Source: Hyphomicrobiales bacterium
GTDB lineage: Bacteria > Pseudomonadota > Alphaproteobacteria > Rhizobiales > Rhizobiaceae
Direction of reading: 5' to 3'
DNA length: 64,000 nt
Assembly (NCBI GenBank): GCA_900473045.1
Contig: UCKS01000058.1
Span: forward strand, 62,001 to 126,000
Both the position numbers and the translations under genes were made by a program. Position 1 is the stretch's first letter. Each line of letters begins with the position of its first letter. The notes under the pieces are model-generated. The model was not told the DNA's origin. It did not search any database and was given only the letters and a program-made list of their open reading frames with translations. Shown here in pieces: positions 14,857-31,694 of this stretch.

Positions 14857-16353
<1,497 letters not shown>

Positions 16354-16401
16354 GGGTGATCCTCCTGATCTTGCTTATGGCGGGAGTGTCGCACTACAAT
16401 A

Positions 16402-16440
16402 TGCACAAATCAACGCGCGATATTCAGCAACCGTTGTGCA
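16402..16440. promoter_or_regulatory. Spaced inverted repeat between mmsA and the monooxygenase gene
   Basis: TGCACAA (16402-16408) and TTGTGCA (16434-16440) are exact reverse complements with centres 32 bases apart, about three helical turns, in the 123-base divergent control region. The spacing suits a multimeric regulator such as the LysR protein encoded nearby. No binding is known. Confidence 0.4.
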
Positions 16441-16476
16441 GAAATTGATGCCGTCAACGCCGATGGAGGGCCTACG

Positions 16477-16794
16477 ATGAAAACCAACTCCGAAAAAATC
16501 GTCAGAATAGCGGAGCTGGATATCGATCCGGCCCAGATTGATGCCTATCTCGCCCTTCTGACCGAAGAGATCGAAGCCTCTGTTGAGAAGGAACCGGGCG
16601 TGCTGATGCTGCATGCGGTCTCGGTAAAGGATGCGGTCGAGAAGGTTCGTATCCTGGAAGTCTATGCCAATAGGCAGGCTTACGAAGTTCATATCCAGAC
16701 GCCACATTTCCTCAAATACAAGACGCTGACGGCCGGCATGGTGACGTCGCTCAACCTTGTCGATGTGGATCCCATCGTGCTCGCAGCCAAATGA
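16477..16794 (+). CDS. ABM-domain putative quinol monooxygenase
   Basis: A 105-residue protein of the antibiotic-biosynthesis-monooxygenase (ABM, YgiN-like) ferredoxin-fold family. Typical elements are RIAELDIDPAQIDAYLAL, VEKEPGVLMLHAV and YANRQAYEVHIQTPHFLKYK. Members act as small dimeric, cofactor-free oxygenases on quinols or similar compounds, and the substrate here is unknown. GGAGGG lies seven bases before the ATG. It is ten bases upstream of the LysR gene, so the two are likely cotranscribed, and it is divergent from mmsA. Confidence 0.85.
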   Translation: MKTNSEKIVRIAELDIDPAQIDAYLALLTEEIEASVEKEPGVLMLHAVSVKDAVEKVRILEVYANRQAYEVHIQTPHFLKYKTLTAGMVTSLNLVDVDPIVLAAK

Positions 16795-16804
16795 GGGTCA
16801 ATCA

Positions 16805-17686
16805 ATGAACTGGGATGACGTCCGTATGTTCCTGGCGGTCGCGCGCAGCGGCCAGATCTTGTCGGCCTCTAAGCGGCTGGGCGTCAATCATGCAACGCTC
16901 AGCCGGCGTGTCACGGCGCTGGAGGAATCGCTGAAGACCCGTCTTTTGATCCGCCGCACCAATGGTTGCGACCTGACGGCGGAAGGCGAGATCTTCCTGC
17001 ATGCGGCGGAGCGGATGGAAACCGAAATGCTGGCGGCACAGGCGCAGATCGGCCGCATTGACACCGCCGTTGCCGGCACTGTGCGCGTCGGGGCGCCCGA
17101 CGGTTTTGGCGTCTCGTTCCTCGCCCCGCGCCTTGGCAAGCTAACCGCCCGGTTTCCGGAACTGCGCATCCAGCTGGTGCCGGTCCCCCGCTCCTTTTCG
17201 CTGTCACAACGCGAAGCCGATATTGCGATTACGCTGGAGCGGCCGGAACAGGGCCGGCTGATATCGTCGAAACTGACCGATTACACACTCGGGCTCTATG
17301 CCTCGCAGGACTACCTGTCGTCATACGGAGCGCCCGAAACTGTGGACGATCTGAAAAACCATCGTCGCATCGGCTATGTCGAAGACCTGATCTTTACCGC
17401 CTCGCTGAATTTCACCGGAGAAATCATGCGCAGCTGGGACGCCTCGTTCGAGATTTCGAGCGCCACGGGGCAGACCGAAGCGGTGCGCTCCAGCGCCGGG
17501 ATCGGCATCCTGCACAACTATATCGCCCGGCAATATCCCGAGCTCATCCGCATCCTGCCGGAGACGACGATCCGGCGGGGTTACTGGACCACCTACCATG
17601 AAAGCGCCCGCGATCTCGTCCGCGTCCGCACCGTCGTCGATTTCCTTCAGGAACTGGTGACCGAAGAGCACAGCATCTTCATTTGA
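16805..17686 (+). CDS. LysR-family transcriptional regulator
   Basis: A 293-residue LTTR. The N-terminal helix-turn-helix reads MNWDDVRMFLAVARSGQILS with recognition region LGVNHATLSRRVTALEESL. The C-terminal two-lobed effector domain begins near residue 90 (GTVRVGAPDGFG). It resembles the subgroup of LTTRs that regulate neighbouring dehydrogenase genes. The ATG at 16805 follows the ABM gene by 10 bases. The divergent arrangement makes mmsA or the ABM gene the likely target. The effector is unknown. Confidence 0.9.
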   Translation: MNWDDVRMFLAVARSGQILSASKRLGVNHATLSRRVTALEESLKTRLLIRRTNGCDLTAEGEIFLHAAERMETEMLAAQAQIGRIDTAVAGTVRVGAPDGFGVSFLAPRLGKLTARFPELRIQLVPVPRSFSLSQREADIAITLERPEQGRLISSKLTDYTLGLYASQDYLSSYGAPETVDDLKNHRRIGYVEDLIFTASLNFTGEIMRSWDASFEISSATGQTEAVRSSAGIGILHNYIARQYPELIRILPETTIRRGYWTTYHESARDLVRVRTVVDFLQELVTEEHSIFI

Positions 17687-17692
17687 GGATGC

Positions 17693-18646
17693 CTATTCCA
17701 CCACGGATGCAACGGTTGCCGGCAGCGGCACGAAGGATGGTTTCATTGTTCCCTTCGAAACGTCTTGCTGGCCGACCGCCGGCACCTTATCCGCTGCGGC
17801 TATTGCAGCCGCCTCGCCCGGCATTGGGACTTTCACGGCATTGACGGTCGCTTTTTCTGCCTTCCCGGCTGGTTCGACCGCCGCCATGTCCGCTGGTGGA
17901 TTTTCGGAAACGGCTGGTTGCCTTACCCTTCGCACGGGTGCCGCAACGGCGACCTCAGTTACCGGCTGAACCTCCTGTTGCGTGAACGGGACTGGTGAAA
18001 CCGCGCCCGGCCCTGCTGCATAGCCCAGCGACTGGATGTTTTGCGACGAAGCCGGATTCAGGCGCAGTCCCTGCATCAGCGCAACGATCCGGTCGGCCGC
18101 AATCGAGGGGCTGCAATAACGCAGCCGGATCTGCGCCGCTCCGCTTGTCGTCTGGCCGCCCTCATAGGACCTGATGTTCTTTGCAAACTGCCATGCGTAA
18201 ACGCAAGCGCCGCTCTCGCCGATGGAACCGGTCGCGTAACCGAAAACGCCGTAGGCGTTATCGGCAATTACCGGGCTGATCTGCATCTTGACGCCGGACA
18301 AGGCGTTGCGCATCTCGGCTTGGACCTGCGACCGCGACGGCGCGCCGTTGCTTCGCGTGATCTTCGCGGATGGGTCGATCGTCACCTTCAGCATGTTCTC
18401 GCCGGCAAGATCAGTTGCATTGGCGTAAACGATCGTCTGCTCGATTTTCGCTTTGGCTCCCGTCTGCCGAACCGTCGTGGCCCTGAGGCCTGGGAGAGCG
18501 GCGGCGGCGTATTCGGGAGAAACCGTGGTGGCGAGCGAGGGCCAGGTGCCCTCGACAGCGCCTGTGCGCAGGAAGGGATCATCAACCATCGACGTGCACG
18601 AGGCGAGCATCGAGACCAAAGCGATTGCTGGAAAGAAACGTTTCAT
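17693..18646 (-). CDS. bcsN: Cellulose biosynthesis lipoprotein BcsN
   Basis: A 317-residue lipoprotein. The signal peptide starts MKRFFPAIALVSML and ends in the lipobox LASC, with the cysteine near residue 17. The conserved body includes DDPFLRTGAVEGTWPSLATT, IVYANATDLAGEN, VFGYATGS and a cysteine-containing CVYAWQ, as I recall for BcsN of rhizobial cellulose operons. The last ~100 residues are Pro/Ala/Val-rich and look disordered. The ATG at 18646 overlaps the TGA of the TPR gene as ATGA, so it is the last gene of the bcs operon. Its molecular role is not established. The upstream open frame to 18772 is not used. Confidence 0.75.
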   Translation of the reverse strand: MKRFFPAIALVSMLASCTSMVDDPFLRTGAVEGTWPSLATTVSPEYAAAALPGLRATTVRQTGAKAKIEQTIVYANATDLAGENMLKVTIDPSAKITRSNGAPSRSQVQAEMRNALSGVKMQISPVIADNAYGVFGYATGSIGESGACVYAWQFAKNIRSYEGGQTTSGAAQIRLRYCSPSIAADRIVALMQGLRLNPASSQNIQSLGYAAGPGAVSPVPFTQQEVQPVTEVAVAAPVRRVRQPAVSENPPADMAAVEPAGKAEKATVNAVKVPMPGEAAAIAAADKVPAVGQQDVSKGTMKPSFVPLPATVASVVE

Positions 18647-20736
18647 CGGCGTGTATCCGTCTGGCTCGTGGCGACAAGACCGCGTCTCACACCTGCATCC
18701 GAGAGGTGATCGTTGAGGCGCTGGAACACCTGTTTGGCGACCTGCTTGTTGCCGAGATGGTAATAGGCCCATCCGCGCAGCTGGCTGAGATCGGCAGGTT
18801 CCGCCACCAGGCTTGCCCGTGCATTCAGCGCATCGAGCGTCTTTTGATACTGCTTGCGATCGAAACTCGCCCGGGCGCGCTGGAAGTAGATTTCCACCCG
18901 GATTTCCCGGTCTCGTTCGGCGTTGAGCGGATAGGCCCTGATGATTGCCTCGGCATCATCCGTCAGGCGTCCGCGCAACAGGGTCAGCGCCGTGCCATAG
19001 GCCGCATCGGCCTGCACCTGACCGCCGGCGGCAAGACCATCAGCGAATGCTGCGCGTGCCTCGGCGAGACGGCCAAGTCCGAGATAGCACCAGCCGCCGA
19101 TCTGGGCCGCATCCGGCGACAGCTGTCCCCGGTTGCGCAGGTCGGCCAGATCGTTGATGCAGGCGGCGTAGCGCTTGGCCTGGAAATTGCGGAAATAGTT
19201 GGCCTGGATGATTCCACGCGGCTTGATCACCGACGCTGCCACCCTTCCCTTCGGCGGCGATGCGGCGCGGATCTCGTCCCAGATGCCAGGATAGGCCTGA
19301 CCATATTTTTCCTGCAGCGCGGTAAACTCCGGTTTTTGTTCCAGCCGCAGGTAAGAGAGCGCCAAACCCTTGACGCGGGCCGGCGCCACCTTCCAGTCGA
19401 TGGCCTTCTCGAACCAGGCGGAAGACGCTTCGAATTGCTTGGAATTATAGGCGTACCAGGCAAGAATTTCGGCGTGATCGGCGTTCAGCGTCTGCAGGAT
19501 CGTTGTCGAGTAGGACGCGACGATCTTTTCGTCGATCTCGGCCATGTCCGGCTTGGCAAAACGCAGCGACAGGGCGTTCATCAGGAATTCCGGATCGCCG
19601 GACAGATCCTGCAGATAGCTGGCCGCGACCTTATAGGCTTCTTCCTCGAGATTTTGCGCGGCGAGGCTGAGATAAAGTCCCTTGGCATTGGCAGCATCCG
19701 CCTGGATCGCCAGCGCCTTCGTAAACCACTCGACGCTGACGGCCGGTTGCTTGATCTTCAGATAATACCATCCGAGCAAGGCCATATCCTCGATCTTCGC
19801 AGGATCTGTTGCCTTGAGCGGGGCGAGTTGATCGTCGGAAAGAGGCACCGTCTGTTTTTCGTCGGCATTGAAATCGGCGACCGTCTTGCGCATCAGATCG
19901 AAGGACACCGGCTGCAGGCCCGCCTGCATCGCCGGCGTCACCGCAAGCTTCTGCATCACAGCCTGGACTTCAGCCGCCGGGAAATCGCGTATGGCCTTCT
20001 GCAGCGTTGTCACCAGCACCGCATCCGGCAGCCGTTTGTCACCTTCACGTAAAAGGATACCGCGATAGACGTCAGCCAAAGGCTGCTTCATCCCGGAATG
20101 CGCATAGGCGTCGATCAGCGTCCAGAGCAGGTCAACCTCAGTTTCCGTCGCGGGATCGATGCTGCCGCCGGCCTGGATGACATCGGTCCAGTTATTTTCC
20201 TTGGCCGCTTGCGTCATCAGCACGCGCTGCTTGCGGCGCGAAAGCTTATCCGTGAAATCAGCCGTCGGCTGCCAGTCCGGCGCATCGGTCTTGCGGCGGA
20301 TGATTTCGGCATCGATGCCGGTGAAGTCGCTTCGATCATAGAGCTGCCAGAGTACGGTTTCGTCGGCGCCGCGCGCCGATTGCGGCAGGTAAAGGTCCTG
20401 CGGCATTTCGAATTGCGGAAATTTCAGCCGCAAGCGTGCAGCCTCGGCGGCGACGCGCTCATCCTGCTTCTGCTCGGCGTAATAATAGAGCGCCGCCATC
20501 TCGACCTCATCGGGCATGTTTGTAGCGGCCTGCGATGTATTTACGGATACTCCATTGCTCGCTGCCGAGGGGTCGATCTGCCCTGCGACAGCCGATGTCA
20601 TCGCCTGATCGATAATGCGGAAGGAACCAGCCGCCTGCGTCAGCAGCTTTGCCGAATCCTCCGATAATGCTGTTGCTGGCGCAAGCAGGCTCGATGCGGC
20701 CAGAAGGGCCAGCCAGTGTTTCTTCATGACGATCAT
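18643..20736 (-). CDS. TPR-rich periplasmic protein of the cellulose operon (BcsK-like)
   Basis: A 697-residue protein with an N-terminal signal peptide (MKKHWLALLAASSLLAPATA after a short lead) and many helical TPR/Sel1-like repeats throughout, for example KAIDWKVAPARVKGLALSYL, GGWCYLGLGRLAEARAAF and RGWAYYHLGNKQVAKQVFQRL. It sits where other bcs operons place bcsC or the TPR protein bcsK. It contains no C-terminal outer-membrane beta-barrel, so it matches BcsK or the TPR half of BcsC rather than a complete export porin. A role as periplasmic scaffold for the emerging cellulose chain is inferred. Its ATG overlaps the bcsB stop by four bases (20733-20736). Confidence 0.75.
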   Translation of the reverse strand: MIVMKKHWLALLAASSLLAPATALSEDSAKLLTQAAGSFRIIDQAMTSAVAGQIDPSAASNGVSVNTSQAATNMPDEVEMAALYYYAEQKQDERVAAEAARLRLKFPQFEMPQDLYLPQSARGADETVLWQLYDRSDFTGIDAEIIRRKTDAPDWQPTADFTDKLSRRKQRVLMTQAAKENNWTDVIQAGGSIDPATETEVDLLWTLIDAYAHSGMKQPLADVYRGILLREGDKRLPDAVLVTTLQKAIRDFPAAEVQAVMQKLAVTPAMQAGLQPVSFDLMRKTVADFNADEKQTVPLSDDQLAPLKATDPAKIEDMALLGWYYLKIKQPAVSVEWFTKALAIQADAANAKGLYLSLAAQNLEEEAYKVAASYLQDLSGDPEFLMNALSLRFAKPDMAEIDEKIVASYSTTILQTLNADHAEILAWYAYNSKQFEASSAWFEKAIDWKVAPARVKGLALSYLRLEQKPEFTALQEKYGQAYPGIWDEIRAASPPKGRVAASVIKPRGIIQANYFRNFQAKRYAACINDLADLRNRGQLSPDAAQIGGWCYLGLGRLAEARAAFADGLAAGGQVQADAAYGTALTLLRGRLTDDAEAIIRAYPLNAERDREIRVEIYFQRARASFDRKQYQKTLDALNARASLVAEPADLSQLRGWAYYHLGNKQVAKQVFQRLNDHLSDAGVRRGLVATSQTDTRR

Positions 20737-23099
20737 TGATCAGACCTCACACCCTTGCGCGGAATGGCAAACCCGAGCCACACGGCGAAGACGCCCATCA
20801 ACCCGACGATGAGCAGAACGTAGAATTGGAAATTATCGGAGAACCAGGCAGCCGCCAGGCGGCGGATGTTGCTCGGGCTCTGGTCGGTCATTCCGGCGAT
20901 GAAATGCGACCCGGCCGGCACCGTGTTGACGGCAAGACTGGCGGTCTCGATTTCGGCAGAACCGCCATTCAACCCCTGCCAGACGGCAGGCTCGACAAGC
21001 CGGCGAACGCCAAGCGCGATATCGGCAGGTGATCCCGCATGCACCACGGTCCAGACAGCTTCGCCGGACGGTGACGGGGTTTGCGTCAAGGTCAGCAGCG
21101 AGTGCCCAGGCTTGAGCATTATCGTTGCGCCTGAACCGTCCTGGTAGTTCAGCCATTTTCCGAAGCGCCCACCCGCTCCAGAAAACCAGTCCTGCAGCCT
21201 GGATGTTACCGACAGCGCATCCTGCGGCCGCGTCGTCGATTTGCGGAACGCATCCAGCAATGCGGTGGAATCGTCATTGTTGAGCGCCGGGCTGACTGCG
21301 AAAGCACCGCCACCGATGGCCGCCGTCCGGATCGGATCGACGTCCGCGGTGGAGGCCGCCATCGGCTGGTCCGAGGCGACGGGAAAGGCGCTCTTGCCGG
21401 CACTGCCGAGATCGGCAAAGGCGTTCTGCGTGGTGATCACCAGCGCATTGCGATCTCCGGACGGATGGGCCGCACCCAGCCGGATCTCGGCATTCAGAGG
21501 ATTGCGTGCGGCAAGTGCCAGGCGGGACAGCATGGTGAGGGCGGCACCAGTGGACTGCGCGTCCGGACGCTCGATGAAGATGTCGAACGGCCTGCCATCG
21601 GCATACGGATAAGCGGTCCCAGCCAGGGCGCCGATATCCGGCAGACGGCCGATGCGGGCGAGTGCCGGGATCTCGATCCTGGTGTCCTGCAGCAGGATGA
21701 ACCGAGGCGTTGTGTCGTCGCGGGCTTCCGGTGCACAGGTCTCGTCGGCCTCAACCGGCAGTTCCGCCAAAAGCTCGACCTTATTGTTGCCTGGACGGAA
21801 CGCCCGCAGCGGCAGTTCGATCAGCTTGCCGTCAAACTGTTCGCCAGCGGCATTGCGGAAAGGATAGCTGGTGACGACGCGGTCGTTGACCCGCACCAGA
21901 AGCTGCGCCGTGCGCTTCAGGCCCGCAGATGTGGCGGCGCTTAGCTTCAGGCCGATCGTGGCATAGTCGGCCGGGTAGAAGTCTGCCGGCATGACCATGT
22001 TGAAACCGGTGCGCGACAGACGCCCGGAAAAGACACGGGTCTCATATCCGGTATCGGCCAGCGTAAAGCTCGTCGAGGCATCGGCGATGATCGTTCCGGA
22101 CTGGCGTGAGAAAATGCCGCTGTCGAGGCTTTCCTTCAGCGGACCCTGGATGGCCTGAAGCAACTGGCTGCTCATCTCGGCGCGGGTGGCGCCCCGCAGG
22201 CTGACAACGGCACGGCCGTCGCTACCGGCGTCGCGCACAGAAAAGCCATAAGGTGCCGCCTGTCCATCGGCACCGCGCGCCTGCGCCCGTGTCTTGTCCG
22301 AGGACACATAGAGATCGATGCCCGGGCCTGTGCCGGGTTTTTCGCCGACGGTTACCGCGAGATCGTCCCGGTTCATGAACAGCGCCAGCGTCTGCAGAGC
22401 GGGAGCTGCATCATTCAGCATGTCGGCAGTCGCTGCCGGCGGCAGGATCAGCCGGATCTCCGTGATATTGGCGTCGGTGCGTGCGACGGTCAGCAGATCG
22501 TCGAAGGACCGGAAGCCATGATCTCTGGTGGCTGCAAACCCGCTCGCCGACGGATCAAGCTCGCTCCACAGCTCGTAGGTCGCCTCCAGCGAGCAATCGA
22601 CCCGATGGAACTGGCGTGCCCGCAGGACTACCTGGTTGCGGCCGGGTTTCAGAAACTCGGCCCCAATCGCCAGCGCCTCGTTCTTGAAGCCGTTCGGCGA
22701 GGCAATTCGGAATGTCCCCGCCGCTTTGCCATTGACCTCGACATCCATGACGGACGTGTCGGGCAGGACGGAAACGGCATTGCGATAGGCCAGCGCCAGC
22801 TGCCCGCCGCTTGCGGCCTGATCGGACGCGAGGTTGAAGCTCAGCCGTGCAACCGCGTCTTCGCCCGACAGGTGATAGGCCGGCAGCGCCTGCTCGAACG
22901 GCACGAGGCCGTTGGCCTTGGCAGCCGCGGCTTCCCTGTTTATCGGGCGGGTCGACAGGATGCCTTCGCTGTCGCCAGGCAGGACACGGGCGGCGGATGG
23001 GGCTGCGTCCAGCAGGCTCTGCGCAGACAAAGGCAGCGTCTGTGCCATGAGGAGAGCCAGCGACAGGCTGGCTGCCCGCGTGCGAAAAGGCTTAGCCAT
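20733..23099 (-). CDS. bcsB: Cellulose synthase regulatory/periplasmic subunit BcsB
   Basis: A 788-residue protein with a signal peptide (FRTRAASLSLALLMAQTLPLSA), two large periplasmic carbohydrate-binding/flavodoxin-like repeats and a single C-terminal membrane anchor (FYVLLIVGLMGVFAVWLGFAIP), the usual BcsB topology. Typical BcsB phrases include GNNKVELLAELPVEADETCAP and the region RPFDIFIERPDAQST. The anchor helix pairs with BcsA and is needed for synthase activity. The ATG lies inside the end of bcsA with an eight-base overlap. The length is normal for alphaproteobacterial BcsB. Confidence 0.9.
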   Translation of the reverse strand: MAKPFRTRAASLSLALLMAQTLPLSAQSLLDAAPSAARVLPGDSEGILSTRPINREAAAAKANGLVPFEQALPAYHLSGEDAVARLSFNLASDQAASGGQLALAYRNAVSVLPDTSVMDVEVNGKAAGTFRIASPNGFKNEALAIGAEFLKPGRNQVVLRARQFHRVDCSLEATYELWSELDPSASGFAATRDHGFRSFDDLLTVARTDANITEIRLILPPAATADMLNDAAPALQTLALFMNRDDLAVTVGEKPGTGPGIDLYVSSDKTRAQARGADGQAAPYGFSVRDAGSDGRAVVSLRGATRAEMSSQLLQAIQGPLKESLDSGIFSRQSGTIIADASTSFTLADTGYETRVFSGRLSRTGFNMVMPADFYPADYATIGLKLSAATSAGLKRTAQLLVRVNDRVVTSYPFRNAAGEQFDGKLIELPLRAFRPGNNKVELLAELPVEADETCAPEARDDTTPRFILLQDTRIEIPALARIGRLPDIGALAGTAYPYADGRPFDIFIERPDAQSTGAALTMLSRLALAARNPLNAEIRLGAAHPSGDRNALVITTQNAFADLGSAGKSAFPVASDQPMAASTADVDPIRTAAIGGGAFAVSPALNNDDSTALLDAFRKSTTRPQDALSVTSRLQDWFSGAGGRFGKWLNYQDGSGATIMLKPGHSLLTLTQTPSPSGEAVWTVVHAGSPADIALGVRRLVEPAVWQGLNGGSAEIETASLAVNTVPAGSHFIAGMTDQSPSNIRRLAAAWFSDNFQFYVLLIVGLMGVFAVWLGFAIPRKGVRSDQ

Positions 23100-25350
23100 A
23101 GAGCTGCTCTCCCTTGAGAACCGGGGCGTGTTCGAGTGTTTTGACAGGCGCCTGCACGATCTTGTTGTCGTTCAGCACCATCGGTGCATCCTCGAAGGAC
23201 TGCACGACACTTTCGCGGATCAGGCCGGCGCTGTAGCGGATGGCGCGCAGGGATTCCGTCAGGCTCCACAGCGCAAACCGGCTGGTGCCCCAGAAGAAGT
23301 TTTTCCGGGTCTGGCGGCGCTCCAGGCGATCCTGCAGCACCGACTGGTCGGAATACATCAGCTCGGCAATCGCCATCACCGTTTCCGGCGTACGCTCGGA
23401 ATAGGCAAAGCCGCAGATCGCCGTCTGATCGAGCAAACGCCGCGAGCGATAGACGACATTGAAGTTGATCGTCTGGCCGCCACGGCGCACCTCGACCTTG
23501 GCCGTCGTCGGGTTGACGAGGTCCAGCTTCGGCTCCTTGTCGACAAATTCGATCGACACGCCGCCGCTGGAGGCGTCCTGAATGATGACGTGATGAATGA
23601 TGTCGCCGATATGCATCAACGCATGACGCTTGACCGGCAGACGCTGGTTGCGGCGCAATTCGCGGCGTTCGGCAATGGCCCCGAGGGCAGCTCCGGCAAG
23701 GCCGAGATTGATCAGGTTCCACATCGCAACGATCAGCAGCAGCTCGCTGGCGACCGGCTCGGTCAGGACGCGGTATCCGGAATAAAGCGCGGCGGCGAGC
23801 AGCAGGAAGAAGATGGCGAAGTATGGTTTTGCCAAGGGCGACAGCTTGCTCTTGTCCAGCGTCTGGCCCTTTGCGGTGACATTGAAGGTCGGCTTGCGCG
23901 GATTGCGCACGACGCTGACGATGCTGCCGAACAGGAAGACAGCCTGGACATATTCATAAAGCTCGGAAATCCATGGCCAGCGGACGCGGCCATAGAGATA
24001 GCTCTGCATGGCAAACGAGGAGATCAGGTAGGTCACCGCATAGGAGGCGAACTCGAGGATGTTGGCCTTGTAGATTTCCAGCGAGAAGAAGATGTAGAGC
24101 AGCGGCGAGAACATGAAGGCGAGACGCGACAGCGGGAACAGCCAGAACATGTTGATGCCAGCATAACAGATGCGCTGCGGGATCGAGAGACCCTTGGCCA
24201 GGAACGGCCGCTTCAGTATGAGAATCTGCAGCATGCCCTGGCACCAGCGGGCGCGCTGGCCGATAAACGAGACGAACGTCTCCGGCTGCAGTCCGGCGAT
24301 CAAGGGCTTATCGACATAGACCGAATGCCAGCCCTGGCAATGCAGCGACAGCGCCGTTTCGCAATCCTCGGTGATCGACTGGCCGGAAAACCCATCTGTG
24401 GTCATCAATGCCGAGCGGCGCAGGACGGCGGCCGAGCCGCAGAAGAACGACGCATTCCATTTGTCGAGCCCGCGCTGCAGGATCGAATAGAACATCTCGT
24501 TTTCCGACGGCATGCGGGCAAAGGTCTGAAGGTTCTTTTCCAGCGGATCGGGGTTGAGAAAATAGTGCGGCGTCTGGACGAGGAAGAGCTTTTCATCCTC
24601 CCTGAAGAAACCGACCGTCTCGCGCAGAAAGTCGCGTACCGGCGCATGGTCGGCATCGAACACCACGACCAGCTCGCCCTTGGAAACTTTCAGGCCCTCA
24701 TTGAGATTGCCGGCCTTGGCGTGATCGTTCTGCTTGCGGGCATGATAATGCACGCCCATGGCGGCGCAGAGCGCCTTCAGCTGCTCGTGGCGGCGGATGG
24801 CGGCGACCGAGACATGCGGGTTCTTGTGGTTGCGCTTGGCATCCGTGCCGCCGTCATCGAGCAGGTAGATGTTGAGCTTGTCCTTCGGATAGGCCATCGA
24901 CTTGGCGGCGGCCAGCGTCACGGCCAGAAGTTCGGCGTCTTCATTATAGCTCGGGATGAACACGTCGACCGTCGGCAGATCGGCAGCTGCACCCATGTCC
25001 GGCGTCTTCCGCTTGATCGGGTCGATGACCATGAAAAAGCTGATCGCCAGCATCGCCAGGCAGTACATTTCGGCGAGGTAGAGCAGGAAACCGGGAATGA
25101 AATTCAGCGGCTCGGTGATATCCGGCAGCGTCTCGGTTGTGCGCCAGAAACCGTAGCGCAGCGCAATGATGCCGGCAAAGACGAGCGTGATGACGCGGAA
25201 CGTGCTGTTGTCGGGCCGCGTCATGCCGATGAACATGATGCCGAGAACGGCAAAGGAGAGCATAAGCTGCGCCTGAAGGCTCATCGGCAACAGAATGAGA
25301 GTCAAGCCGAGAGCGCCAGCCGGAATGGCCAGATATTTTCCGCACGTCAT
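23092..25350 (-). CDS. bcsA: Cellulose synthase catalytic subunit BcsA (UDP-forming), PilZ-regulated
   Basis: A 752-residue GT2 cellulose synthase. About four N-terminal helices precede the cytosolic glycosyltransferase domain with VFIPSYNEDAE, substrate aspartates in VVVFDADHAPV, catalytic TEDCETALSLHCQGW and the processivity motif QRARW. More helices follow, then a C-terminal PilZ domain carrying the c-di-GMP motif RRNQR followed by DASSGG. It polymerises UDP-glucose into beta-1,4-glucan across the inner membrane, with activation by c-di-GMP expected. It is the first gene of bcsA-bcsB-TPR-bcsN. The start at 25350 has only a weak purine stretch upstream, so translation initiation may be inefficient. 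Confidence 0.95.
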   Translation of the reverse strand: MTCGKYLAIPAGALGLTLILLPMSLQAQLMLSFAVLGIMFIGMTRPDNSTFRVITLVFAGIIALRYGFWRTTETLPDITEPLNFIPGFLLYLAEMYCLAMLAISFFMVIDPIKRKTPDMGAAADLPTVDVFIPSYNEDAELLAVTLAAAKSMAYPKDKLNIYLLDDGGTDAKRNHKNPHVSVAAIRRHEQLKALCAAMGVHYHARKQNDHAKAGNLNEGLKVSKGELVVVFDADHAPVRDFLRETVGFFREDEKLFLVQTPHYFLNPDPLEKNLQTFARMPSENEMFYSILQRGLDKWNASFFCGSAAVLRRSALMTTDGFSGQSITEDCETALSLHCQGWHSVYVDKPLIAGLQPETFVSFIGQRARWCQGMLQILILKRPFLAKGLSIPQRICYAGINMFWLFPLSRLAFMFSPLLYIFFSLEIYKANILEFASYAVTYLISSFAMQSYLYGRVRWPWISELYEYVQAVFLFGSIVSVVRNPRKPTFNVTAKGQTLDKSKLSPLAKPYFAIFFLLLAAALYSGYRVLTEPVASELLLIVAMWNLINLGLAGAALGAIAERRELRRNQRLPVKRHALMHIGDIIHHVIIQDASSGGVSIEFVDKEPKLDLVNPTTAKVEVRRGGQTINFNVVYRSRRLLDQTAICGFAYSERTPETVMAIAELMYSDQSVLQDRLERRQTRKNFFWGTSRFALWSLTESLRAIRYSAGLIRESVVQSFEDAPMVLNDNKIVQAPVKTLEHAPVLKGEQLYG

Positions 25351-27163: not shown

Positions 27164-27613
27164 TCAGTTCTTCTTGAAGCCGGAGATGGCCTTTTCGGCG
27201 GCGTCCTTGCCAGGCTTCGTCACGGTTTCGGCAACCTTGCGGGTGGCTTCCTGCATCGACTTTGCCTGTTCCATGGCAAGCTCGGCCTGCTTGCGGATGA
27301 AGGCGGTCTGCAGTTCGAACAGTTCGGAAACCGACTTAACGCCGAGCAGCGCTTCCATGTGCGACAACGAATTTTCGGCATTGGTGCGCAGGGCGTCGAT
27401 CGCCTTGAGGCCGAGTTCGACGGTGCCGGACTGCGCGCTTTCGAAAGTCGCTTCAACGGTCTTCGTCGCGTCTTCGGCGGCGGTCTTCATCTTGGAATAG
27501 GCTTCCTTGGACTGGACAGCACCCTTTTCAGCGAAATCGCGAAAAGTTTCGGTGACCTTTGCCGGATCGAAAGAGGCAAGCGAAAAGACGTCGTCAGTTT
27601 TCTTGGTAGCCAT
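27164..27613 (-). CDS. Phasin family protein
   Basis: A 149-residue helical protein typical of Phasin_2 proteins that coat polyhydroxyalkanoate granules. The amphipathic helices include FRDFAEKGAVQSKEAYSKMK, ALRTNAENSLSHMEALLGV and FIRKQAELAMEQAKSMQEA. It ends KAISGFKKN, with alanine/lysine-rich character. AAGGAG lies seven bases before ATG 27613, and the frame open to 27652 is not used. Two TTGCATTGCA-like boxes on its promoter suggest control by the PHB-responsive repressor PhaR/AniA. The nearby acetoacetyl-CoA synthetase gene fits a PHB-turnover context. Confidence 0.9.
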   Translation of the reverse strand: MATKKTDDVFSLASFDPAKVTETFRDFAEKGAVQSKEAYSKMKTAAEDATKTVEATFESAQSGTVELGLKAIDALRTNAENSLSHMEALLGVKSVSELFELQTAFIRKQAELAMEQAKSMQEATRKVAETVTKPGKDAAEKAISGFKKN

Positions 27614-27670
27614 GATCTGCGCTCCTTGGTTTTGGGCCCTCTCATGAGGCACCCATTGTGTGATGATGTC

Positions 27671-27699
27671 TATATAGGCGATTTACTTGTGCAATGCAA
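27671..27699 (-). promoter_or_regulatory. Promoter of the phasin gene
   Basis: On the minus strand TTGCAT (27699-27694) and TATATA (27676-27671) are separated by 17 bases, about 60 bases upstream of the phasin start. This is the best sigma70-like match noticed in the window. Confidence 0.6.
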
Positions 27700-27715
27700 T
27701 ATATTTGTGCAATGC
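27687..27715. promoter_or_regulatory. Direct repeats over the phasin promoter (candidate PhaR boxes)
   Basis: TTGTGCAATGC occurs at 27687-27697 and again at 27705-27715, an exact 11-base direct repeat with an 18-base period. On the minus strand each reads GCATTGCACAA, and the upstream copy extends to CTGCATTGCAC, close to the PhaR consensus CTGC-N3-GCAG recalled for alphaproteobacteria. One copy overlaps the -35 element, as expected for a repressor. Confidence 0.5.
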
Positions 27716-27863
27716 AGCATTCATTAAAATCACCTGTATTAACCTTGCGCGTCGAAAGGCCTGTGCGCCATAGTCTGCAAGCTGGACCCTGGGCGTCCTG
27801 GTGTCTATTAATAGACTGTTAACAATCCCGCCCCTGTGGCGGTTGCGCAAACCAGGTCAGCCG

Positions 27864-30800
27864 ATGCCCGCAAAATCGTATCCCTTTATCGACATCGCCG
27901 TTCATGAACGGGTGCGGGAGCATTTTGCCAAGGGCGATGCTGCCGTGCTGTTTTCGCCGGACATGAGCCAGGTGTTGTGGTCGAATGGAGAGGGCGCGTT
28001 CCTGTTCGGCCTGCCGTCGATCTACGATTTCATCGACAGCGGCGCCAACCGCAATGATGCCGCCTATCGCCAGATGGAGGCCGCCGCACGGCAGCTGAAG
28101 CGCAGCGGCGACAGCCGGACGTTCCTGATGCGCATCGCGTCGGGTTTCCAGCGCGCTTCGGTCAGTGCCTCGGTCGAGATGATCTCCGTGCGGCCGGGCG
28201 AAACCGCCATCCTCTTTGCAGCGCCCCGCAGCGGCAAGCCGCTTGCCATTCATGATCGTGCAGCCCGGATGATCTCGGGCTTCGACGATCCGGACACGCA
28301 TATGGCCGTTTTGGATGGCGATGGCGCGATGCTTGCCGCCTCACCCGGTTTCGCGGCGCTGGCCATGACACCGCAGACCTGCCGCTCGCTGGTAACAGCC
28401 GTTGCCCGCGACAGCGACTGGCTGCTCAAGCGGCCGATCCCAACGGGAAAGGGCCATCTGCCGGCCGCCATCGGCAAGCTCTCGGAGCGTCCCGCCCTGC
28501 ATCTGCTGTTCGCGGTCGAGACCATCTTGGGCAACCTTGATCCCGGAACGGATTTTGTAGAGATCGCGGATACCGATGACGCGCCAACTGCGGCCGAGAA
28601 TGCGGTGAGCCAAACCACCGCGCCGCTTCCGTCACCGATAACCCTGCCCGCCGATGTCATCGACGAGATCGAGCAGATCGAGGAGATCACCCCGGAAGAC
28701 GACGGCTTCATCGATCCACAGGACGAAGCTATGCCTGCGGCAGAGACTGAACCGCCTACCGGCGAGGCTATTTCGGTTTCTGTTGAGCCCGAGGCCGAAG
28801 AGATAACACCCTCTCTGGAATTGCCTTCCGATTCACAGCCGGAGCCTATCGCATCGGCCGCAGACGATCCGGGCGAGGTCTCCGAGACCGATGTCCCCGA
28901 GGAAACCGCCATTCTGCCTGTCGCCGGTGAAACGGTGATGGAGGAGATCGAGGCTGTCGAACCGTTGCCGGTCGAGCCGGTCGAAGTGCCGCAAGAACCT
29001 GTCCAGGACAATGTGGTGCTGGATGAAACGCTTGTGACTGAAACCGCCAGCGACACGCCAACTGTCGAAAGCGCCAAGGATGGCGTGGCAGACGACGACG
29101 CCACCGTTGCAGCCGACATCCCGCTTGAAGAGGCGTTTGCCGAAGACACAGGCGCAGCAGAACCCGTGCAGGGTTTCGTTTTCAATCCGAATAGCCGTGC
29201 CGTCCGTTTCGTCTGGAAAATCGATGCGGACGGACGGTTCAGCGAGATTTCCGAGGAATTCGCAACGGCTGTCGGCCCGAACTCCGCCGATATTACCGGC
29301 CACAGTTTCAGCGACCTGGCGGATCGCTATCACCTCGACCCAGGCAACACGATCAGCGAACTTTTGAAGCGGCGCGACACGTGGTCGGGCAAGACGATCT
29401 ACTGGCCGGTCGAAGGCACCAGCCTTCAGGTTCCGGTCGATCTCGCCGCCCTTCCAACCTATTCGCGCAACCGCGAATTCGATGGTTTCCGCGGCTTTGG
29501 CATCGTTCGCGTGGCCGACACCGTCGATGACAAACAGGCCATTGGCCTGACTTTTGGCGTACAGGCAGCTGCCGAAGAGACAGATGCGAACGCGATTGGC
29601 GACGCGGCGCCGGAGCTGTTGTCTGCCGATCACGCGGTGGTGGCAGAAGACACAGTCCCGCACGATGCGACCGAAGAAGGCCCCACGACAGCGGAGCCTA
29701 TCGACACGCCTGACGAACCGGCAGACAGCCCGGAGTCTGCAGCAGAACTGGAAACGCCTGAGCAAGGCGACGGCGAACCGCTTGCCGAGGCCAGTGATGG
29801 GCTACCAGCCACCGACGACCAGCAAGACCCTTTCCGTGGCGAGCGTCCGGCGCTCAAACTGGTCCAGACCGCAGGACGCCGCGCATCCGACAAGGTCGTC
29901 CAGCTCGACAATCATCGCCCGGGCACCGAACCCTTGAGCCGCAGCGAACAGGCCGCTTTTCGCGAGATCGCCCGTCAACTCGGCGAGAATTTCGGCAAGC
30001 GACCGAATGAGAGCGTGGCAGCCACGGACGTGGCTGCGGCAGAAACCCCGTCACAGGATGACGCCTCACCGAAAATCGAGGCAATCTCCGAGGACAGCCA
30101 TGCCGTCATCGCCGATGGCGCGGAACACACGACCGAAAACACCGCGCTCGGGGCGCGCGCCTCGATCGTGCCTGCGCGCACCAGCGGCAATAGCAGCCTG
30201 ACGCCGGAAATCCTCGATAATCTTCCGCTCGCTCTTCTGGTTCATAGCGGCGACGATCTGTTTCACGCCAATTCCGAATTCCTGGCGCTGACGGGTTATG
30301 CCGGGCTGGCCGAATTGCGCGAGGAAGGCGGGATCGACGCCCTTTTCGCCGGTGACGAGGATGGCCTGTTCGACTTGCCGGATGGCACAGTGATGCTGAT
30401 CCGCAACGACGGCCAGCTCGTGCCAGTCTCGGCTCGGCTGCAGTCGATCCGCTGGGAAGACAAGAACGCGCTGATGATGGCGCTTTCGGCAACCCAGACC
30501 GCGCCTGCGCCCGTCGCTACGGACATTCAGCCGACAGATGCCGCCGAGCCGACTGAGGCGCTGGAAATCCAGGCACTGCGCATGGAGACGGAAGAACTCC
30601 ATTCCATCCTCGAGACGGCAACAGACGGCGTCGTCGTCGTCGGTGGTGAGGGTGAAATCCGCTCGGTCAATCGCTCGGCCAGCGCCCTGTTCAACTATGA
30701 CGACGGCGAAATCCGCGGCAAGCCGTTTGCCATGCTGTTTGCCCATGAGAGCCAGAAGGCCGTTCTCGACTATCTCGCCGGCCTTTCCGGCCATGGCGTC

Positions 30801-31694
30801 GCCAGCGTGCTGAACGATGGCCGCGAAGTGATCGGCCGTGAGGCGTCCGGCGGTTTCATTCCGCTGTTCATGACCATGGGCCGCCTGTCTTCCTCCAACG
30901 GCTTTTGCGCCGTCATCCGTGACATTACCCAATGGAAGCGGACGGAAGAGGAACTGCGCAACGCCAAGCGGGCCGCCGAAACGGCCAACGCCCACAAGAG
31001 CGATTTCCTCGCCCGCGTCAGCCACGAAATCCGCACGCCGCTCAACGCGATTATCGGCTTTTCCGACATGATGGCGAGCGAGCATTTCGGCCCGATCGGC
31101 AATCCGCGCTATGTCGAATATGCCGGCGATATCGGCCGCTCCGGCCGCCATGTCCTCGATATCGTCAACGACCTGCTGGATATTTCCAAAATCGAGGCGG
31201 GCGAGATGGACCTGGAGTTCACTGCCGTCGAGATCAACGATGCCGTATCCGAGGCCGTCGCTCTCGTGCAACCGCAGGCCAACAGTCAACGCGTGATCAT
31301 CCGCACCTCGCTGTCGGGCTCGGTACCGAACGTGGTTGCCGACAACCGCTCGATCAAGCAGATCGCCCTGAACATCCTGTCGAATGCCATCCGCTTCACG
31401 CCGTCGGGCGGCCAGATCGTTGTTTCAACAGCCTATGAGGCCAATGGCAGCGTCATCCTGCGCATCCGCGACACAGGCGTCGGCATGACCCGCACCGAAC
31501 TCGAGCAGGCCATGAAACCGTTCCGCCAGGTCACCACCGGTGCACGCAAGCGCGGCGACGGCACCGGGCTCGGCCTGCCGCTGACCAAGGCAATGGCCGA
31601 GGCAAACCGGGCGCAGTTCTCGATCAACTCGGCGCCGAACGAAGGTACTCTGGTGGAGATTTCCTTCCCATCGCAGCGGGTTCTGGCCAATTAA
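27864..31694 (+). CDS. Large multi-PAS sensor histidine kinase, PdhS/CbrA-like
   Basis: A cytosolic kinase of about 1276 residues without membrane helices. Order: N-terminal PAS-like region (1-260), a long acidic linker (~265-445), a PAS-like domain (~450-560), a second acidic linker (~570-780), PAS domains (~785-870 and ~920-1035), HisKA with its phospho-His at about 1053 in LARVSHEIRTPLNAIIGFS, and HATPase (NILSNAIRFTPSGG, DTGVGMT, GTGLGLPLTK). The kinase core closely resembles the PdhS/PleC/DivJ group that controls DivK and polar development. A PdhS1-type role is inferred from this and from synteny with Agrobacterium as I remember it. ATG 27864 is preferred, with AGGT upstream. A GTG at 27801 is also possible. 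Confidence 0.85.
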   Translation: MPAKSYPFIDIAVHERVREHFAKGDAAVLFSPDMSQVLWSNGEGAFLFGLPSIYDFIDSGANRNDAAYRQMEAAARQLKRSGDSRTFLMRIASGFQRASVSASVEMISVRPGETAILFAAPRSGKPLAIHDRAARMISGFDDPDTHMAVLDGDGAMLAASPGFAALAMTPQTCRSLVTAVARDSDWLLKRPIPTGKGHLPAAIGKLSERPALHLLFAVETILGNLDPGTDFVEIADTDDAPTAAENAVSQTTAPLPSPITLPADVIDEIEQIEEITPEDDGFIDPQDEAMPAAETEPPTGEAISVSVEPEAEEITPSLELPSDSQPEPIASAADDPGEVSETDVPEETAILPVAGETVMEEIEAVEPLPVEPVEVPQEPVQDNVVLDETLVTETASDTPTVESAKDGVADDDATVAADIPLEEAFAEDTGAAEPVQGFVFNPNSRAVRFVWKIDADGRFSEISEEFATAVGPNSADITGHSFSDLADRYHLDPGNTISELLKRRDTWSGKTIYWPVEGTSLQVPVDLAALPTYSRNREFDGFRGFGIVRVADTVDDKQAIGLTFGVQAAAEETDANAIGDAAPELLSADHAVVAEDTVPHDATEEGPTTAEPIDTPDEPADSPESAAELETPEQGDGEPLAEASDGLPATDDQQDPFRGERPALKLVQTAGRRASDKVVQLDNHRPGTEPLSRSEQAAFREIARQLGENFGKRPNESVAATDVAAAETPSQDDASPKIEAISEDSHAVIADGAEHTTENTALGARASIVPARTSGNSSLTPEILDNLPLALLVHSGDDLFHANSEFLALTGYAGLAELREEGGIDALFAGDEDGLFDLPDGTVMLIRNDGQLVPVSARLQSIRWEDKNALMMALSATQTAPAPVATDIQPTDAAEPTEALEIQALRMETEELHSILETATDGVVVVGGEGEIRSVNRSASALFNYDDGEIRGKPFAMLFAHESQKAVLDYLAGLSGHGVASVLNDGREVIGREASGGFIPLFMTMGRLSSSNGFCAVIRDITQWKRTEEELRNAKRAAETANAHKSDFLARVSHEIRTPLNAIIGFSDMMASEHFGPIGNPRYVEYAGDIGRSGRHVLDIVNDLLDISKIEAGEMDLEFTAVEINDAVSEAVALVQPQANSQRVIIRTSLSGSVPNVVADNRSIKQIALNILSNAIRFTPSGGQIVVSTAYEANGSVILRIRDTGVGMTRTELEQAMKPFRQVTTGARKRGDGTGLGLPLTKAMAEANRAQFSINSAPNEGTLVEISFPSQRVLAN

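Follow-up and report, generated by a model that had tools for sequence, protein, structure and literature searches.

A bcsZ-free bcsA-bcsB-bcsK-bcsN cellulose operon in a Rhizobiaceae genome, probably representing a distinct type III sub-lineage

The 64,000-nucleotide stretch of Rhizobiaceae DNA analyzed here (the window; contig C91, positions 62001 to 126000, in an assembly of 6.78 Mb with a completeness of 99.92%) contains a four-gene bcs operon for cellulose synthesis that has no gene for the GH8 endoglucanase BcsZ. With BcsA and BcsB, BcsK in place of BcsC, and BcsN, it is a type III bcs operon. We consider it probable that it is a complete operon of this type (BcsK/BcsN), belonging to a distinct sub-lineage within the Rhizobiaceae that has the gene order bcsA-bcsB-bcsK-bcsN and lacks bcsZ, and that it works by the mechanism set out below.

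The window operon and its clade

The operon reads, in the direction of its transcription, as follows:

23092..25350, minus strand: bcsA, UDP-forming cellulose synthase catalytic subunit with a PilZ region, 752 aa (TIGR03030, motifs)
20733..23099, minus strand: bcsB, periplasmic cellulose synthase subunit, 788 aa (PF03170)
18643..20736, minus strand: bcsK-type TPR scaffold, 697 aa, no barrel (TPR_2, TPR_8, AlphaFold2 model)
17693..18646, minus strand: bcsN, lipoprotein, 317 aa (PF17038, lipobox, AlphaFold2 model)

All four genes are open, and successive genes overlap by 8 (bcsA/bcsB), 4 (bcsB/TPR gene), and 4 (TPR gene/bcsN) bases. An earlier note on this DNA had described four genes with overlaps of 4 to 8 bases, no endoglucanase gene between bcsB and the TPR gene, and bcsN at the 3' end, and this layout is borne out: bcsB and the TPR gene overlap, and therefore no gene lies between them; none of the four genes encodes GH8; and bcsN (18646 to 17693) is the last gene on the minus strand. 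Genes bcsD, bcsE, and bcsG are likewise missing from the operon, where the overlapping genes leave no room for them (this applies to the operon itself, no genome-wide search for the three having been made). A promoter and terminator scan found no promoter-like sites upstream of bcsA and one terminator-like site.

BcsA matches TIGR03030 with 832.6 bits (cut-off, 699.1), and its match to Pfam PilZ (PF07238), at 20.0 bits, falls below the cut-off of 22.5. It carries RxxxR at residue 566 and DxSxxG at residue 592. Both motifs are found in 65 of 65 BcsA proteins from loci of the window's type, and the catalytic motifs are found in 64 or 65 of the 65; we take the latter to be those of a GT2 enzyme and RxxxR/DxSxxG to be the PilZ motifs for cyclic di-GMP (c-di-GMP). 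BcsB matches PF03170 above the cut-off (118.8 bits) and, as judged by eye, has a signal peptide and a C-terminal membrane segment.

The bcsZ-free arrangement was followed in two partly overlapping sets of loci, the counts of which are not additive. In a first sample of 247 Rhizobiaceae genomes, window BcsN had matches in 74 at an E value of 1e-5. Among 24 window-type loci of this sample (L066 being outside the count), 23 read bcsA-bcsB-bcsK-bcsN and the other, L040, is cut by the contig start; none of the 24 contains bcsZ. A second scan, restricted to genomes in which BcsB aligned in the window-type manner, yielded 67 loci, of which 62 are of window type. Three of these are cut by contig ends (L094, L127, and L129), and the remaining 59 hold the four genes in the same order on one strand, including three with a gene in two open reading frames (ORFs) (L084, L087, and L135) and two in which bcsA lies partly off the contig (L107 and L116). 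A bcsZ match was seen in 0 of the 62. Carriers include members of Rhizobium, Pararhizobium, Shinella, Allorhizobium, Metarhizobium, Gellertiella, and Hoeflea.

A BcsA tree with 101 rows places all 65 window-type rows (65/65) on one side of a single branch with a Shimodaira-Hasegawa-like approximate likelihood ratio (SH-aLRT) support of 100; the tree was built by a quick method and its long outgroup branches are flagged, and its input omitted 19 second-scan loci as repeats as well as BcsA ORFs shorter than 600 aa (first sample) or 650 aa (second scan). The comparison of bcs gene order across Rhizobiaceae that the earlier note had proposed thus upholds the absence of bcsZ in the window operon, although not as a one-off, the same state having been seen across the operon clade.

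The window genes also appear constrained. Compared with Rhizobium sp. Root1334, nonsynonymous and synonymous divergences (dN, dS) are 0.018 and 0.429 for bcsA, 0.062 and 0.585 for bcsB, 0.049 and 0.529 for bcsK, and 0.111 and 0.752 for bcsN, corresponding to dN/dS ratios of about 0.04, 0.11, 0.09, and 0.15, respectively.

The second operon and the trimming of the glucan

A second bcs operon is present in the same genome on contig C87 (L002, 3618 to 12512), with the order bcsN-bcsA-bcsB-bcsZ-bcsK. The one GH8 match found in the genome is the bcsZ of this operon, the product of which scores 175 bits against GH8 and has a signal peptide as judged by eye. The two operons differ in that the second has GH8 and begins with bcsN, whereas the window operon is GH8-free and ends with bcsN. 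All four window proteins have homologues in the second operon, with local identities of 56% (BcsA), 30% (BcsB), 28% (BcsK), and 32% (BcsN).

Two features of the second operon's proteins were observed in passing. Its BcsA (L002, 4767 to 6953) has no RxxxR at the aligned PilZ position (SERGELSATRRVKVTR), a reading that depends on the alignment, and among second-type BcsA proteins RxxxR occurs in 4 of 13 from operons with bcsZ and in 11 of 14 from operons without it; the window and second operons may, judging from these motifs, differ in c-di-GMP control. Rhizobial BcsZ proteins (in the second operon, L002, 9298 to 10350) have Asn in the motif GYNA(L/I)RI, and all of the 9 among 13 sequences that fit the searched pattern have Asn there. 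E. coli BcsZ has Asp at the corresponding position.

The presence of a complete operon elsewhere in the genome could be taken to mean that the window operon arose as a duplicate of the full one, recently shed its bcsZ, and is now decaying toward loss, and broken copies in the relatives L084, L135, L087, and L066 could be cited to the same effect. The window genes are open and their dN/dS ratios are low, however; their identity to the second operon is low as well; the bcsZ-free order forms one clade that spans many genera; and BcsN has just one match in each of 17 among the 25 window-type genomes. Decay of the window operon is, on this evidence, very unlikely. The broken copies themselves take several forms, with bcsK in two ORFs in L084 and L135, bcsA and bcsB in two ORFs each in L087, and a bcsN remnant in L066 the match of which contains a TGA; intact window-type copies exist in other relatives. 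In Rhizobium sp. RCAM05350 (L087), the GH8 match is also in two pieces.

Trimming of the glucan may be dispensable, or it may be provided in trans, for which the BcsZ of the second operon is the candidate in the window genome; in other lineages a secreted GH5 endoglucanase might possibly serve. GH8 was found in 42 of the 74 BcsN-bearing genomes and not in the other 32, and 21 of the 25 first-sample genomes of window type gave no GH8 match. In Shinella, neither the three g76 genomes of the first sample nor 7 of 7 further genomes gave a GH8 match. Rhizobium herbae, by contrast, is a carrier that does have one. In G094 and G229, GH8 shares a contig with the BcsN match but is about 80 and 72 kb away from it, respectively, outside the operon.

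The idea that a secreted, Cel5A-like GH5 endoglucanase is the working partner of bcsZ-free operons, either in trans or next to them, draws on its co-occurrence with the absence of GH8. This GH5 group occurs in 38 of the 247 first-sample genomes, namely, in 28 of the 32 BcsN-bearing genomes without GH8, 5 of the 42 with GH8, and 5 of the 173 without a BcsN match (28/32 versus 5/42, Fisher p = 3e-11, uncorrected for kinship). The second sample, consisting of 35 carriers among the 62 window-type second-scan loci, shows no such link: GH5 was found in 14 of the 22 carriers lacking GH8 and in 7 of the 13 possessing it or, once L094 is removed as a repeat of G011 on the grounds of identical GH5 places, in 13 of 21 versus 7 of 13 (Fisher p = 0.73). 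When both samples were pooled and the one repeat was removed, the counts were 41 of 53 without GH8 and 12 of 55 with GH8, and for window-type genomes only they were 30 of 42 versus 7 of 17 (p = 0.04), both comparisons being uncorrected for kinship. A tree-based pair test covering 44 of the 74 genomes had 3 usable pairs and hence no power.

The gene of the GH5 group adjoins the window-type operon in 6 of 86 loci searched, which represent five places, following bcsN in L061, L132, L138, and L123 and preceding bcsA in L060/L128 (one place). The motifs NEP (19/19) and GE(F/Y)G (18/19) are kept in the 19 of 21 matches checked, and the nearest solved protein is the endoglucanase Cel5A (9p41, 438.9 bits). 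Against this partnership, the neighbors of unlinked GH5 genes resemble, by eye, the genes of another exopolysaccharide in 7 of 9 contexts inspected among 16 regions. Further, both the GH5 group and any Pfam Cellulase match are missing from four first-sample genomes that also lack GH8 (G012, G046, G203, and G243), and in three Hoeflea and five Pararhizobium-like genomes of the second sample neither GH8 nor the GH5 group was found. The window genome has no member of the group either, although its contig C74 carries a different Pfam Cellulase match (87.8 bits); such Pfam Cellulase (GH5) matches occur in 19 of the 25 window-type genomes if weaker matches of other kinds are counted.

Precedents for a GH5 enzyme in this role have been described in the form of CcsZ, which is present instead of GH8 in a clostridial cellulose locus (PMC7710045), and of Ps_Cel5A, proposed as a stand-in for BcsZ in P. 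stutzeri, which lacks GH8 (PMC8900817). Taken together, these observations indicate that GH5 may have replaced GH8 in some lineages, and a general partnership of GH5 with bcsZ-free operons is possible, if on balance doubtful. GH26 was rejected as a trimming enzyme; it matched in 2 of the 25 window-type genomes, where the alignments covered a portion of the profile and scored 23.6 and 25.3 bits. The cellulase searches covered GH8, GH5, and GH26; GH6, GH9, GH12, and other families were outside their scope.

Export without a BcsC barrel

The TPR protein has TPR_2 and TPR_8 matches above the cut-offs and a signal peptide as judged by eye, and at an E value of 0.001 it has no match to BCSC_C. Its AlphaFold2 model, based on a 34-row alignment (the window protein, those from 23 of 24 window-type loci, L040 being cut, and those from 10 of 16 second-type loci), has a mean predicted local distance difference test score (pLDDT) of 84.5, with residues 1 to 71 modeled poorly. 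It consists of helices, without any strand of 3 or more residues, and its Foldseek rows are generic helical-repeat proteins. A barrel hidden in this protein is rejected on the basis of the helices-only model, and the earlier note was right that the protein has no C-terminal β-barrel.

That note had concluded that trimming and export of the glucan must use genes elsewhere or a different mechanism, and it had called for a genome search for GH8 and BcsC-like barrels. GH8 was indeed found elsewhere, at the second bcs locus; BCSC_C had no match in the whole genome at E values up to 1, in a search whose controls placed E. coli above the cut-off and detected two others below it. What the note had named as refuting its reading was accordingly found for GH8 but not for the barrel. 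The missing barrel is not peculiar to this operon: BCSC_C has matches in none of the 74 BcsN-bearing Rhizobiaceae genomes (0/74 at E = 0.001), although a very divergent barrel could escape both searches. An AlgE-type exporter (PF13372) was considered and rejected, with a match in 1 of 25 window-type genomes (32.7 bits) that has a stop inside it; in the window genome, searches for BCSC_C and PF13372 found no member of these known barrel exporter families. Type III bcs systems are described as often carrying BcsK, a periplasmic scaffold only, in place of BcsC (PMC11470070, PMC6559018), and a group of alphaproteobacterial bcs loci without BcsC has been described (PMC7112194). Of the two absences, that of GH8 is explained by the second locus, and that of the barrel is a trait shared by type III bcs systems as a whole.

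BcsN matches PF17038 with 123.9 bits (cut-off, 25.6). Although the bcsN ORF at its longest would begin at 18772, the start was set at 18646, where an ATG overlaps the stop of the TPR gene, because that ATG gives a lipoprotein signal peptide like those of relatives. Cys17 (in the lipobox), Cys148, and Cys178 are invariant in 38 aligned BcsN proteins (of 42 available; L064, L066, L071, and L075 were omitted), and the tail is proline-rich and disordered, with VPLP-like stretches. In the AlphaFold2 model (mean pLDDT, 72.7), an ordered core at about residues 39 to 210, with 121 residues at a pLDDT of 90 or more, forms a single compact domain of strands and short helices and no barrel. No Foldseek match was obtained at an E value of 0.001, and the best VIA rows (mycobacterial Apa, 8.1 and 7.7; PsbP-like, 7.0) are at a level that the tool calls common. 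The predicted structure thus has weak matches, to soluble folds, which we do not read as indicating a new fold. By sequence, neither BcsN nor BcsK has a solved relative at the limits used.

The likeliest route, as deduced from the encoded proteins, runs from BcsA-BcsB through BcsK and BcsN to a non-BcsC exit. BcsA-BcsB would make β-1,4-glucan and pass it to the periplasm upon c-di-GMP binding, the TPR superhelix of BcsK would scaffold the periplasmic path, and BcsN, probably a lipoprotein of the outer membrane, would couple that path to the outer membrane. Alternatively, BcsN itself might form the outer-membrane exit as a lipoprotein oligomer, given that it is the one lipoprotein accompanying BcsK in these operons, that its lipobox Cys is invariant, and that the window genome gave no match to a known family of barrel exporters. 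The monomer model is one compact domain without a barrel, however, and shows weak similarity to soluble folds (best VIA Z, 8.1), so we regard this alternative as improbable and favor BcsN as a coupling component.

Relatives, known systems, and implications

Absence of bcsZ is not confined to the window-type clade. Among second-type loci, 13 of the 16 first fetched (L002 included) have bcsZ, and L074, L076, and L077 do not. Twelve further loci were fetched, 11 of them from GH8-free genomes; these 11 are second-type loci in which no bcsZ was seen, including L145, which is cut by the contig start, and bcsK is divergent in L145, L148, L150, L151, and L152. Locus L156 is of a third kind, with the order bcsA-bcsB-bcsZ-bcsK. 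On the BcsA tree, the second-type rows without bcsZ need 4 state changes, at least 3 of them on well-supported branches, so bcsZ was apparently lost more than once among second-type operons. In all five distant loci (L140 to L144), bcsZ lies between bcsB and bcsK. One of these, L140 (7517 to 16231, from a Hyphomicrobiales metagenome-assembled genome), reads bcsA-bcsB-bcsZ-bcsK, followed by a 75-bit match to BcsN; on the basis of this one locus, an A-B-Z-K-N ancestor that lost bcsZ is possible.

Relatives of window BcsB occur in 78 plasmid records. Among the plasmid matches listed, four at 38 to 58% identity are from Shinella, Allorhizobium pseudoryzae, Rhizobium rosettiformans, and R. rhizoryzae, and six at 28 to 29% identity are from Pararhizobium and Rhizobium; therefore, both operon kinds can sit on large secondary replicons. 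The window operon is flanked (14857 to 17686 and 27164 to 31694) by LysR-type and aldehyde-dehydrogenase genes versus phasin-like and PAS/histidine-kinase-like genes, as named by eye, and the gene groups at these positions return in roughly 20 to 32 of the 62 window-type second-scan loci. No recurrent accessory gene was recognized in the flanks, where shared neighbors each occur in at most 32 of the 62 loci (rough clustering, antisense ORFs included). In Rhizobium rhizophilum and two relatives (L119, L122, and L126), the window-type operon is followed downstream by an extra bcsA-bcsB pair, at about 17032 to 21582, and in the BcsA of this pair neither PilZ motif is present at the aligned position.

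Among known systems, the type III operon of Starkeya sp. N1B (bcsN, bcsA, bcsB, bcsZ, and bcsK) shares BcsN and the replacement of BcsC by BcsK with the window operon (PMC6559018). It differs in having bcsZ and in the position of bcsN, which is upstream and divergent in Starkeya and last on the same strand in the window; bcsZ, though present in that operon, is not given as a defining trait of type III in the portion of the article available (PMC6559018). The Rhizobium celABC operon has BcsA and BcsB homologues in common with the window operon (PMC3520766, PMC4646962). The Proteus mirabilis A2 operon, like the window operon, is without bcsZ, apparently by loss, but it is of the gammaproteobacterial bcsABZC type, in contrast to the BcsK/BcsN type of the window (PMC7112194). 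The cluster from which S. zoogloeoides makes cellulose is described as bcsN, bcsA, bcsB, and bcsK (PMC9012009), the same four genes as in the window, their order not being stated; bcsZ is not named in the main-text account of it (PMC9012009). The literature searched contained no description of a bcsZ-free A-B-K-N subtype, the 2015 review by Romling and Galperin, a possible describer, aside.

Some of these observations weigh against a complete operon of a distinct bcsZ-free sub-lineage. Window-type copies are broken in some relatives; the outer-membrane place of BcsN and its contact with BcsK are predictions from sequence, and the BcsN model has no confident fold match; and the S. zoogloeoides cluster may be Shinella's other bcsZ-free operon (L076, L077, and L155) and hence not of window type. 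A more specific scenario would hold that the sub-lineage has always, as far as sampled, produced and exported its cellulose with no GH8 in the operon, that GH5 took over trimming in some members while trimming became dispensable in others (Hoeflea and some Pararhizobium), and that export proceeds via BcsK and BcsN to a non-BcsC exit; as a whole, this scenario is tentative and rather unlikely. We continue to favor the reading of a complete type III operon in a distinct bcsZ-free sub-lineage.

A bcsZ-free clade whose genomes are mostly GH8-free (21 of 25 in the first sample) offers a direct way to ask what the enzyme does in cellulose synthesis, and genomes with both operon kinds, the window genome included, are natural test beds for this question. 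Further, the four-gene operon appears to provide a small set in which to seek the outer-membrane exit of type III systems.

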